Source: Gammaproteobacteria bacterium (lineage in GTDB: Bacteria; Pseudomonadota; Gammaproteobacteria; JAKDMP01). Taken from it: a stretch of 38,085 bases of DNA. The stretch's first letter is position 1; each line of letters opens with the position of its first letter. The notes under the pieces are model-generated. The model saw nothing but the letters and a program-made list of their open reading frames with translations. It had not been told where the DNA came from and made no database searches. The stretch spans positions 77,457 through 115,541 of the forward strand of contig JALUYA010000001.1 of NCBI GenBank assembly GCA_027018875.1. Direction: 5' to 3'. Positions 10,852-22,823 of this stretch are shown here, piece by piece. The translations under genes were made by a program, and so were the position numbers.

Positions 10852-10974
10852 TCTCTACCGGCGTGGTTGACAGCCTTGCGGCAGGACAATCCCAGATGTT
10901 GGCTCCCGTCCGGCTCAGGCTATTCCGCTATTCTTGGCGGTTTCATCCCGAAAAATCTGCAAGGGCTTGATGTC

Positions 10975-12399
10975 ATGACCAATAAAGCAGTAGCAGGCAG
11001 CAACCTTGGCGTAATTGCCCTTACGCTGATGACCGCCGCACTTTTTCTCACCTTGCGCAATATGCCGATGATGGCCGCAGCCGGTCTGGAAATGGTTTTC
11101 TTCAATTTTGTCACGGTGTTTGCCTTTCTCATTCCCATTGCGCTGGTATCGGCGGAACTGGCGACTGCCTGGCCGAAGAATGGTATTTTTCATTGGGCCG
11201 AGGCGGCCTTCGGTACCCGCTGGGGATTTACTGCGGTCTGGTTGCAATGGGTTCAGAGCCTGTTCGGAATCACTTCGATTCTTTCCTATGTGGCCGCGAG
11301 CCTTACCTATGCCTTTGACCCGGGGTTGGGTAACAACCGCTATTTTATTGTCGCGGTGATCCTGGTCGTATATTGGACGGCTACTTTCGCCAACCTGCAC
11401 GGCACCCGCGCCTCGGGGTTGATTTCCAGCGTATGCCTGAGTGTGGGAGTCCTGCTGCCGAGCGTGGTGCTAATCGGTCTGGCAGTACTCTATGTTGTCC
11501 AGGGCCATCCGCTGCACCTGAATTTGGCTATGACCCTTGGTAACTGGTTGCCACTCGGGCACCCCGAGCGCAGTCTGGTGCTGTTTCTGAGTTTTATCTT
11601 CGGTGTAGTCGGTATCGAGGTTTCCGCCAGTCACGCACGCGAAGTACGCAACGTACGTCGCAACTACCCGATCGCCGTCTTTACTGCCGCTGTGCTGGGC
11701 TTCTTCCTCACCCTGTTGGGGGGGCTCGCCGTGGCCGTGATTATACCTACGAACCGGCTTGACCTGGTTTCCGGGGCGGTCCAGACACTGGCCTATTTAT
11801 TTAACACCTATCACATGGTTTGGCTGGTGCCGGTTGTTTCCTTGCTTGTTGCTCTCGGTGCGGCCGGCCAGGTAAGCACATGGGTGGTGGGCCCGGTCAA
11901 GGGTCTTTGGGCCGCGGGCCGTGCCGGCAACCTGCCACCCATATTGCAGGAAGTTAACGCACGGGGGGTACCGCGCAATCTGCTCCTCGTGCAGGCACTC
12001 GCCATGAGTACCGTCACCTTAGTTTTCCTGGTCATTCCATCGGTCGATATCGCCTTTCTATTGTTGACTTCGGTAGCGGTTGTGCTGTACTCGGTGATGT
12101 ATTTATTCCTCTTCGCCGCCGCTATCCGCCTGCGTTATACCAAACCCGATATCCCCCGCCCCTACCGGGTTCCGGGCGGGCGGGTGTGGGGGTTATGGCT
12201 GGTAGCAGGAACGGGCTTTCTCACTACATTCCTATGTCTGCTGATCGGATTTCTTCCACCGGGGGTTGGCCTTGGCGCCGCTCGCTATGCCGGGCTTATT
12301 CTGTTTATACTGCTACTGATGTTGGCGCTTCCATTGTTTCTCGAACACTTCCGTCCCGCGCGTTGGCAGTCCACCGCCGATCCTACCCTTCCGGAGTAA
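10975..12399 (+). CDS. gadC: Glutamate/GABA antiporter GadC
   Basis: An APC-superfamily exchanger importing glutamate and exporting GABA, so that the decarboxylase can consume protons. About 474 residues with some twelve membrane segments. Resemblance to E. coli GadC is clear by eye: IPIALVSAELAT, FGVVGIEVSASHAREV, STWVVGPVKGLW, PDIPRPYRVPGG. The ATG at 10975 is chosen because a membrane domain starts just after it and AAGG lies upstream; an in-frame TTG at 10867 would add 36 atypical residues. Only about 18 residues follow the last membrane segment, so the roughly 35-residue cytoplasmic C-plug of E. coli GadC is missing. It ends three bases before gadB. Confidence 0.86.
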   Translation: MTNKAVAGSNLGVIALTLMTAALFLTLRNMPMMAAAGLEMVFFNFVTVFAFLIPIALVSAELATAWPKNGIFHWAEAAFGTRWGFTAVWLQWVQSLFGITSILSYVAASLTYAFDPGLGNNRYFIVAVILVVYWTATFANLHGTRASGLISSVCLSVGVLLPSVVLIGLAVLYVVQGHPLHLNLAMTLGNWLPLGHPERSLVLFLSFIFGVVGIEVSASHAREVRNVRRNYPIAVFTAAVLGFFLTLLGGLAVAVIIPTNRLDLVSGAVQTLAYLFNTYHMVWLVPVVSLLVALGAAGQVSTWVVGPVKGLWAAGRAGNLPPILQEVNARGVPRNLLLVQALAMSTVTLVFLVIPSVDIAFLLLTSVAVVLYSVMYLFLFAAAIRLRYTKPDIPRPYRVPGGRVWGLWLVAGTGFLTTFLCLLIGFLPPGVGLGAARYAGLILFILLLMLALPLFLEHFRPARWQSTADPTLPE

Positions 12400-12402
12400 C
12401 AC

Positions 12403-13776
12403 ATGGTCAAAAAATTTGTCCCCGACACCAATCTCGCTCCCACCTATGGATCCCGCGCAATGGGCAAGCCGGTACCTAAATATTCCTTGCCACAAGAGGG
12501 GATGGCAGCCACTACCGCCTACCGTCTTATCCATGACGAACTCATGCTCGACGGTAACGCCCGGCTTAACCTCGCCACCTTTGTCACCACCTGGATGGAA
12601 CCCGAGGCCGAACGGCTGATGGCCGATACCTTTGACAAAAACATGATCGATAAGGATGAATATCCACAAACCGCGGAAATCGAGTCCCGCTGTGTCAATA
12701 TGATTGCGCGCCTGTTTCACGCCTCGCCGCAGGAAGACCCGATCGGTGTTTCCGCCATCGGCTCCAGCGAAGCGGTCATGCTCGCCGGCATGGCACTCAA
12801 GTGGCGCTGGCGCGCACGGCGCGAGGCCGCCGGCCGCTCGGCCACGAAGCCCAATCTGATTCTGGGCCGCAATGTCCAGGTCGTGTGGGAGAAATTCTGC
12901 CGTTACTGGGAAGTCGAGCCGCGGTATATCCCCATATGCGAAGGCCGCTACGTCATTACCCCCGAGGATGTTCTCAGCCGCATCGACGAGAACACCATTG
13001 GTGTAGTTGCTATTCTGGGCACTACTTTTACCGGCGAGTTCGAGCCCATCAAGGCCATCCACGATGCCGTCGTACGCCACAATGCCGAACACAACCTGGC
13101 CGTCGCGCTGCACATCGATGCCGCTAGCGGCGGCTTCGTCGCCCCCTTCATCCACCCCGATCTACGCTGGGACTTCCGCCTGCCCAATGTCGTTTCCATC
13201 AATGTTTCCGGGCACAAATATGGACTGGTCTATCCCGGAGTCGGTTGGGCCATATGGCGGGGCAGGGAACACCTTCCCGAAGGCCTCGTCTTCCACGTCA
13301 ACTATCTTGGCGGCGACATGCCTACCTTCACGTTGAATTTTTCCCGGCCCGGTAACCAGATCGTTGGTCAGTACTACAACTTTCTGCGTCTCGGCCGCGA
13401 AGGCTACACTCGCATCATGATTACCTTACGCGATACGGCCATGATGCTTGCCGAGCGTATCGGCAAGCTCGGTCCTTTTAAGTGTCTGAGTGACGGCAGC
13501 ACCATCCCCGTGTTCGCCTTTCGTTTGCAGGATGTTTCGCACTATTCCGTTTACGATGTTTCCGAACATCTGCGTATCCGGGGGTGGCAGGTGCCTGCCT
13601 ACACCATGCCGCCGGCCGCTGAAAATGTTGCGGTGCTCCGCATCGTCATACGCGAAGGCTTTTCCCGCGATATGGCCGAATTGCTGCTCGGAGATCTTCG
13701 CAAGGTCATCGTTGAACTAGAGCGCGAGCCGCCGGCACACCCGCGTGGGCCGAGCGGCCGGTTTCATCACGGCTGA
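12403..13776 (+). CDS. gadB: Glutamate decarboxylase
   Basis: PLP enzyme converting glutamate to GABA and CO2 with consumption of a cytoplasmic proton. 457 residues. Family signatures include FVTTWMEPEAERLM, GSSEAVMLAGMALKW, HIDAASGGFVAPF and the PLP lysine Lys272 in NVSGHKYGLVYPGVGW. The C-terminus ends RFHHG, resembling the E. coli FKHT end whose penultimate His closes the active site at neutral pH, so a similar switch is possible. It follows gadC directly, indicating an acid-resistance operon. The window holds no recognisable Gad regulator. Third-position C is frequent compared with neighbours, a qualitative impression. Confidence 0.95.
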   Translation: MVKKFVPDTNLAPTYGSRAMGKPVPKYSLPQEGMAATTAYRLIHDELMLDGNARLNLATFVTTWMEPEAERLMADTFDKNMIDKDEYPQTAEIESRCVNMIARLFHASPQEDPIGVSAIGSSEAVMLAGMALKWRWRARREAAGRSATKPNLILGRNVQVVWEKFCRYWEVEPRYIPICEGRYVITPEDVLSRIDENTIGVVAILGTTFTGEFEPIKAIHDAVVRHNAEHNLAVALHIDAASGGFVAPFIHPDLRWDFRLPNVVSINVSGHKYGLVYPGVGWAIWRGREHLPEGLVFHVNYLGGDMPTFTLNFSRPGNQIVGQYYNFLRLGREGYTRIMITLRDTAMMLAERIGKLGPFKCLSDGSTIPVFAFRLQDVSHYSVYDVSEHLRIRGWQVPAYTMPPAAENVAVLRIVIREGFSRDMAELLLGDLRKVIVELEREPPAHPRGPSGRFHHG

Positions 13777-21308: not shown

Positions 21309-21389
21309 TCAAGTGTAGCCGATGCCGGCTTGCGCTGAGTACCGCCGTACCGTTAGCATTTCAAAGTTCTGAGCCTTATGGGGGAGTGC

Positions 21390-22274
21390 ATGATCCGATT
21401 TTCCGGCAGCATGGTGGCCCTGGTCACACCGATGCAGGTATCGGGCGCGGTAGATGAGTCGGCGTTGACCGAGCTGATCGAATGGCACATTGCGGCAGGT
21501 ACCGATGCACTGGTTATAGCCGGAACGACGGGAGAGTCTCCGACCCTGACCTCAGAGGAACACGCCCGACTGATAGCATCTTCGGTTCAGGTAGCTCGAG
21601 GGCGGATCGAGATTATTGCGGGAGCGGGTTCCAATTCCACCCGGCAGACTTTGGATATGTCGCGCCGGGCCGCGGCGGCGGGTGCCGATGGCCTCATGCT
21701 GGTGGTACCCTATTATAATAGGCCGCCGCAACGGGCGCTGGTTGAACATTTCCGGACCATTACTCGGGCACTGGATTTGCCCATTGTGCTTTACAATGTG
21801 CCTTCACGTACGGGAACCGATCTACTCCCGGAAACCGTGGCCGAGCTGGCGCAGGAGAGTAGAATCGTTGGCATAAAGGAAGCCAGCGGACATTTGGAGC
21901 GGGTGGTTCAACTGCGGCGCTTGTGCGGGGCGGATTTCGCGCTCCTGTCTGGTGATGATGCAAGTGCCACGGCTTTCATGCTGGCCGGTGGGGACGGAGT
22001 GATATCGGTAACCGCGAATGTAGTGCCGGGGCGGGTGAAGCAATTGTGTGAAGCCTCCCGTAAGGGTGATGTGGTGCGTGCGCGGCAGCTTGATGCGGAG
22101 CTTTCGCCACTGAACCAAGCATTATTTATTGAATCGAATCCAATACCAGTCAAATGGGCACTTGAACGTATGAATAGAATCAAATCGGGTATCCGTCTTC
22201 CTTTGCTTCCGTTGGCAAGATCCGCGCGTCCTCGCGTCGAAACCGCGCTTGTAGGACTGGGGCTCGTTACATGA
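21390..22274 (+). CDS. dapA: 4-hydroxy-tetrahydrodipicolinate synthase DapA
   Basis: First committed step to lysine and diaminopimelate: condensation of pyruvate with aspartate semialdehyde. About 294 residues. TIM-barrel motifs include GTTGESPTLT, the proton-relay Tyr in VLYNVPSRTG and the Schiff-base Lys163 in VGIKEASG. ATG 21390 is chosen because GGGGGAG lies directly upstream; the in-frame ATG at 21378 precedes that site. Its stop overlaps the next lipoprotein gene by four bases, as dapA precedes bamC in E. coli. Confidence 0.96.
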   Translation: MIRFSGSMVALVTPMQVSGAVDESALTELIEWHIAAGTDALVIAGTTGESPTLTSEEHARLIASSVQVARGRIEIIAGAGSNSTRQTLDMSRRAAAAGADGLMLVVPYYNRPPQRALVEHFRTITRALDLPIVLYNVPSRTGTDLLPETVAELAQESRIVGIKEASGHLERVVQLRRLCGADFALLSGDDASATAFMLAGGDGVISVTANVVPGRVKQLCEASRKGDVVRARQLDAELSPLNQALFIESNPIPVKWALERMNRIKSGIRLPLLPLARSARPRVETALVGLGLVT

Positions 22275-22540
22275 TGCGCATCGGTATGGCATTGCTCCTG
22301 CTTGCAGTAGTTACGGTTCTTTCCGGTTGTGCCGGCTCATCTATTCCCGATGGCTGGTACACGGCCCATGCCGTAGCGCCGCTGCGCCACCCGCCTGGAG
22401 TTCCGGCCATCAAGTATAGTGATGCCTACAGCATTCCGGGTGGAGCACCGGAGGGGTATCCTGCACATAGCAAACATTCCTTGATTACCCCGCCCAATGT
22501 TTTAACCACTGCCGGTGCGGCCAAGGCCGTTGGCGGATGA
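22271..22540 (+). CDS. Small BamC-like lipoprotein
   Basis: 89 residues, with a lipoprotein signal (hydrophobic 5-17, lipobox LSGC, lipidated Cys20), leaving a mature chain of about 70 residues rich in Pro, Gly, Ala and Tyr. It is coupled to dapA by an ATGA overlap, the place of bamC (nlpB) in many gammaproteobacteria. The segment APLRHPPGVPAI followed by DAYSIPGG resembles the unstructured N-terminal BamC region that lies along BamD. The two helix-grip domains of full BamC are absent: it ends at 22540 just before the tRNA. It could be a reduced BamC or an unrelated lipoprotein. Confidence 0.7.
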   Translation: MMRIGMALLLLAVVTVLSGCAGSSIPDGWYTAHAVAPLRHPPGVPAIKYSDAYSIPGGAPEGYPAHSKHSLITPPNVLTTAGAAKAVGG

Positions 22541-22605: not shown

Positions 22606-22696
22606 GGAGAGATGTCCGAGCGGTCGAAGGAGCACGCCTGGAAAGCGTGTATGCGCTAACCGCGCATCGAGGGTTCGAATCCCTCTCTCTCCGCCA
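22606..22696 (+). tRNA. tRNA-Ser (anticodon GGA)
   Basis: 91 bases including an encoded CCA. Acceptor arm GGAGAGA (22606-22612) pairs with TCTCTCC (22686-22692), G73 then CCA. Anticodon stem CACGC/GCGTG (22633-22637 and 22645-22649) encloses a loop with GGA at 22640-22642. A long variable arm, as expected for class II serine tRNA, and a GGTTCGAATCC T-arm follow. TAGAAT at 22585-22590 may be its -10 box. Confidence 0.97.
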
Positions 22697-22712: not shown

Positions 22713-22823
22713 GGTGGTCTGCATCCGCACCTCGCGACGATATGCCGTGAACCCCGTCAGGCCCGGAAGGGAGCAGCGGCAGCGGCGGATTCGGGTGCCG
22801 GGGATCGGCGGGTGCAGGCCGCC
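22713..22823 (+). ncRNA. ffs: Signal recognition particle RNA (4.5S, small bacterial type)
   Basis: The universal SRP domain IV is visible: GTCAGGCCCGGAAGGGAGCA with the GGAA-type tetraloop and asymmetric loop, at about 22757-22776. The ends pair: GGTGGTCTGCATCCGC (22713-22728) with GCGGGTGCAGGCCGCC (22808-22823), allowing G-U pairs. About 111 bases, the 4.5S size with no Alu domain. It lies between tRNA-Ser and dnaX, an order also found in Bacillus. Exact ends may differ by a few bases. Confidence 0.94.

Follow-up and report, generated by a model that had tools for sequence, protein, structure and literature searches.

The gene that directly follows dapA in the window, the 38,085-nucleotide stretch of gammaproteobacterial DNA that was analysed, most probably (at a rough probability of 0.82) encodes an ortholog of BamC that lacks both helix-grip domains and has kept the lipid anchor and the N-terminal lasso of about 60 residues. 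BamC is part of the machine that builds the outer-membrane proteins. The evidence is computational and consists of the homology of the lasso, the orthologous locus, the absence of any other BamC from the genome, the recurrence of the short form within the class and the selective constraint on the short chains. Since the profile matches and the short dapA-adjacent chains of related genomes coincide with the lack of another BamC, the window protein is best described as a lasso-only BamC.

A preliminary description of the same DNA had placed a lipoprotein of about 70 mature residues at the bamC position after dapA. Indeed, the open reading frame coincides exactly with the interval listed in Table 1, its ATG overlaps the dapA stop by 4 nt (ATGA), and the mature protein counts 70 residues, the lipidated Cys included. 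Only 65 nt separate its stop codon from the gene for tRNA-Ser(GGA), so nothing longer fits at the locus. The nearest relative of the window by dapA among the named records (L087; 65% identity) likewise has a dapA-adjacent lipoprotein, of 94 residues and followed by a tRNA-Ser, which is 39% identical to the window protein in the mature part. The L087 contig belongs to a MAG that is named Rhodospirillales, yet it shows a gammaproteobacterial gene order, and the identity of its dnaX product to that of the window is 88% over the first 50 residues and less than half past residue 150; possibly the contig is a chimera, or the MAG is misnamed. Elsewhere in the window (10867-13776) there are open reading frames that, by eye only, resemble an amino-acid antiporter followed by a glutamate decarboxylase, an acid-resistance pair.

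Table 1. Coordinates of the features at the dapA locus of the window.
Feature	Position	Strand	Basis or remark
Probable lasso-only BamC, 89-aa lipoprotein	22271..22540	+	ORF; profile matches
dapA, precedes bamC in relatives	21378..22274	+	TIGR00674 343.7 bits; PF00701 E=5.1e-98
19-residue signal peptide of the lipoprotein, with the lipobox LSG|C	22271..22327	+	judged from the sequence
Codon of Cys1 of the mature protein, which is lipidated and followed by Ala2	22328..22330	+	sequence
Lasso element 1, Tyr11 of GWY, corresponding to Y of YL/YK in BamC	22358..22360	+	alignments
Lasso element 2, PLRHPPGV, corresponding to PLxVPPxL of BamC	22379..22402	+	alignments
Lasso element 3, YSIP, corresponding to Y-x-I-P of BamC	22427..22438	+	alignments
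Lasso element 4, LITPPNVL, corresponding to the DIRPP element of enteric-type BamC	22481..22504	+	alignments
Ser5, where L087 has its first paired Cys	22340..22342	+	pairwise alignment
Ser51, where L087 has its second paired Cys (C-x-x-x-P-P)	22478..22480	+	pairwise alignment
tRNA-Ser(GGA)	22606..22696	+	also adjoins the short gene in relatives of the window clade
4.5S RNA	22722..22817		downstream of tRNA-Ser(GGA), then dnaX

The other components of the machinery are present in the genome (2.21 Mb in 54 contigs, 95.12% complete): BamA (680 bits), BamB (355.4 bits), BamE (82.8 bits) and BamD (L085, 1411-2160; E=5.7e-49), the last with BamD chains as its best phmmer matches in the PDB. A search of the whole genome for another full bamC, which the preliminary description had put forward as a check, returned no match to the BamC family PF06804, even at E<=10. 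BamC is thus the sole part of the E. coli BAM complex that lacks a normal counterpart in this genome.

We considered an independent origin of the gene, by which a BamF-like or newborn lipoprotein would have converged on the BamD-docking motif, and regard it as unlikely. BamF is reported to share a short N-terminal motif with BamC without having the same fold (Anwari et al. 2012, PMC3359395), but the window gene occupies the very locus of bamC, and it shares with BamC an ordered series of elements, down to the final xxPP of the enteric type (also present in the L092 and L007 chains). Moreover, chains consisting of a lasso and one domain exist. Those of about 190-250 aa in the genomes G028, G300, G005 and G090 match positions 194-322 of PF06804, which is its second domain; an N-terminal match to the same profile is found as well in G300 and G090 (E<0.05), in G005 only at 7.3 and not in G028. 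The chain of G010 matches positions 82-153 instead. A single genus group, of family f28, holds both an 87-aa chain (G173) and a 197-aa chain (G028), and the former aligns over the lasso to the N-terminal third of the latter (BLAST 5e-16, obtained by comparing just the two sequences under short-query settings without composition correction).

The lasso homology was examined with a profile built from 34 dapA-adjacent BamC proteins of at least 305 aa, of which the 75 residues after the signal peptide and Cys were taken, both of these being removed. The window protein reaches 12.4 bits in this profile, and none of 2000 shuffles scores as high (best 8.0); its likeness to the BamC N-terminus exceeds composition. 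In a first set of 27 short chains (at most 150 aa, picked by position), all 2000 shuffles score lower for 19, and for 25 no more than 17 of the 2000 are as high. Two chains fail the shuffle test: L087 taken alone (148/2000 as high), which does not surpass the shuffled profile controls either, and L068 from the same clade as the window (894/2000). In a fresh second set of 36 chains, 23 beat all 1000 shuffles, 29 had no more than 7 as high, and L236, L257, L254, L255, L245, L234 and L242 failed. When the 27 short chains were compared as a profile with the long BamC N-termini, the probability was 96.2% (E=2.6e-9), and 96.3% with the window protein removed, as against at most 0.29% for 20 shuffled profile controls. 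By itself the window protein obtained a probability of 19.6% in this comparison, at a score of 20.7 versus 12.0 for the best of 20 shuffled controls, and L087 by itself 0.4%. Among 38 other lipobox open reading frames used as control, the six high scorers are BamC-type chains themselves; the remainder score 4.0 or lower, and the top one of these is a short chain that had been read starting at its other Cys.

Profiles of the short chains also lead back to BamC. One made from 30 of them, with the window protein and L087 held out, was searched against 177,635 PDB sequences and gave 15 matches at E<=10, the best 13 of which are BamC (7.7e-7 to 0.19) and the other two dihydropyrimidinases (0.56 and 0.59). 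It aligns to residues 34-86 of E. coli BamC (5d0o_C). The window protein and L087 together match it with a probability of 95.4% (E=1.8e-8). Another 24 chains, comprising the window protein and most of those that failed the shuffle test, found BamC in 13 of 13 PDB matches (0.0011 to 0.29). Searched singly in Pfam, 19 of the 30 chains match PF06804 at E<=1, and the best match shown (1.4e-4, 21.4 bits) lies under the cut-off of 25.

These results bear directly on the view that the gene is an unrelated small Pro-rich lipoprotein that stands behind dapA by chance and resembles BamC in composition. In single-sequence searches of Pfam and NCBIfam, the window protein indeed obtains only weak matches over the end of its signal peptide (e.g. 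PF24052, E=0.1, and NF033894, 0.095). Used alone, it does not retrieve BamC from Pfam, NCBIfam or the PDB and stays under every curated BamC cut-off; a two-sequence profile with L087 found nothing in the PDB, and a search of the genome contigs with the protein gave no match. Among 56 relatives it has three non-self matches at E<=0.01, one of which, in G041, lies at the right locus. Its membership in the BamC family rests on the intermediates. Nevertheless, a chance resemblance is very unlikely, considering that shuffles of the same residues and of the profiles fall short of the real chains, that nearly all PDB matches of the short-chain profile are BamC, and that only BamC-type chains score high among the control lipoproteins. 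The preliminary description had noted that the Pro-rich chain resembles the BamC N-terminus, and the score above all 2000 shuffles in the profile search that it proposed, the profile comparisons in both directions, the locus and the intermediates bear this out.

BamC has been reported in all beta- and gammaproteobacteria (PMC3359395). At E<=0.1, PF06804 matches 263 of the 369 genomes of the class and misses 106. The dapA locus was sought in 104 of these 106 (G238 and G243, which initially gave no dapA match, were left out of the repeat search) and was found in 79; the region downstream is readable in 77, since in G115 and G002 the contig breaks off at this point. A dapA-adjacent lipoprotein of at most 150 aa is present in 53 of the 77, the window included, a longer one, at the locus or close by, in 10 (G258, G236, G122, G093, G287, G305, G130, G366, G273 and G165), and in the other 14 the script search found no lipoprotein. 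In two of the ten, G236 and G122, the BamC-type lipoprotein (L049 and L062) lies about 1 kb downstream of dapA with two other open reading frames in between. Genomes in which PF06804 matches weakly (G041, G193, G242, G328 and G039) contribute a further five short chains, which brings the total to 58 genomes in 38 family groups, all called by position, and 50 of the 58 chains have an empirical p of at most 0.01 against the BamC N-terminus profile. In nine genomes (G041, G193, G039, G242, G212, G181, G297, G057 and G087) a scan of the entire genome with PF06804 gives the short gene as its top match, within profile positions 1-54. In G001, the sole other genome of the window's family, no dapA match was found. 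Even shorter chains, down to 26 mature residues, follow dapA in family f52 (L234, L236 and L242); they share only DPLLxPPQL and do not score in the BamC profile. The curated BamC profiles overlook the short genes described here. The proposal of the preliminary description that the BamD-contacting tail of BamC can persist alone is borne out far beyond this genome, the contact itself being extrapolated from E. coli.

The lasso-only form arose repeatedly. Placed on an rpoB tree of 54 genomes, the short state requires a minimum of 10 changes, albeit on a quick tree with many weak forks and with genomes picked by state. The window clusters there with G001, G041, G234, G251 and G287 (SH-aLRT 93). 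State counts on the tree cannot separate gain from loss and would equally fit an ancestral lasso to which the helix-grip domains were added later; but long BamC proteins occur in distant lineages (e.g. an Acidithiobacillus MAG and Ferrimonas) and it is the second domain of that same PF06804 profile that one-domain chains from several families match, which makes such an order of events highly improbable.

In close pairs of relatives the short chains are under selective constraint. The dN/dS is 0.19-0.30 in seven of eight pairs; the value for the window and L087, 0.30, is near saturation, and the 0.71 of L090 and L091 is based on very few changes. The chain is short and diverges fast, as the 39% identity to L087 illustrates, but that it is a decaying bamC pseudogene is hardly credible given these ratios, the open frame near or overlapping dapA in many lineages, the conserved last lasso element and the 65 nt before the tRNA, in which no remnant fits.

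A second recurrent property of the short chains is a pair of cysteines. Among 64 chains (63 short ones and the L017 fusion described below), 22 contain, in addition to the lipidated Cys, exactly two others (L016, L017, L018, L019, L037, L065, L068, L087, L088, L089, L090, L109, L231, L232, L240, L244, L253, L256, L257, L264, L265 and L267), 37 have none and five have one. In all 22 the first Cys is found at mature position 5-16, and the second stands four residues before Pro-Pro (20/22) or five before the Pro of x-Pro (2/22), at a spacing of 43-64 residues; the second site is absent in all five single-Cys chains. No p value was attached to the pairing because related chains are not independent. 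With this placement a disulfide between the two Cys would close the lasso, and its formation in the Cys-pair chains is possible judging from the sequences. By the alignment of the short-chain profile to E. coli BamC, the two Cys correspond to residues of about 34 and 80 there. The window protein has Ser at both sites where L087 has Cys.

The dapA-adjacent lipoprotein of G287 (L017, 2449-3855) has 468 aa and consists of a lasso-like N-terminus with the Cys pair, followed by an outer-membrane barrel that matches Alginate_exp (PF13372, E=3.1e-8). Its N-terminus obtains only 1.8 bits in the BamC profile, and its description as a lasso-barrel fusion is founded on the locus, the Cys pair and the neighbourhood in the tree.

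In E. coli the N-terminal lasso of BamC is described as coiling around BamD, while both helix-grip domains are mobile (PMC13067283, PMC5056442); the lasso comprises residues 32-85 and contacts BamD extensively (PMC5056442). The C-terminal helix-grip domain is reported to move with SurA and to touch D29 of BamD (PMC11970506). By analogy with the E. coli structures, the extended window chain would lie over the TPR face of BamD, beside the membrane, and may serve there as a clamp, tethered by its lipid, that holds BamD in a BamABDE complex. It would have no counterpart of the BamC regions that contact the POTRA domains and move with SurA in E. coli. Such a chain would presumably keep the BamD-coiling activity and lose the SurA-linked one, and stabilisation as well as an effect on substrate entry may be expected of it.

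BamC has been called the most mysterious of the BAM lipoproteins (PMC13067283), and E. coli membranes lacking it are reported to assemble the proteins tested without impairment (PMC10300371). The retention of the lasso together with the repeated loss of the domains suggests that the conserved task of the protein is carried by the tail that grips BamD. At about even odds, we would go further and regard the lasso as the part in which the function of BamC resides, and as a portable module for docking to BamD. On this reading it has been freed from the helix-grip domains time and again, one large group closes it with a disulfide, one family has pared it down to about 26 residues, and in one genome it bears an outer-membrane barrel. 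In any case, the short chains constitute ready-made minimal proteins for testing the effect of the lasso on BamD, and they also allow one to ask whether the C-terminal domain, coupled to SurA, is an optional extra.

In the titles and the first parts of abstracts in the literature, most subscription papers being outside that scope, no description of BamC proteins without helix-grip domains was found. The closest known systems include BamC (NlpB, PF06804 / PRK11679) itself: the window protein is equally a lipoprotein encoded after dapA and has the Y, PLxxPPxL, YxIP and xxPP elements in order, whereas it lacks the helix-grip domains and has about 70 mature residues as compared to more than 300. 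The alphaproteobacterial BamF, likened here by its description, is similar in that it is a lipoprotein of the outer membrane whose N-terminus carries a BamC-like motif and which shows no sign of helix-grip domains, but it is reported from Alphaproteobacteria only (PMC3359395). Finally, some BamC chains in the PDB were deposited as lasso only (e.g. 5ayw_C, 56 residues) and represent the same stretch, which the short-chain profiles match; the source gene of those chains encodes a whole BamC, whereas here the rest is not encoded.
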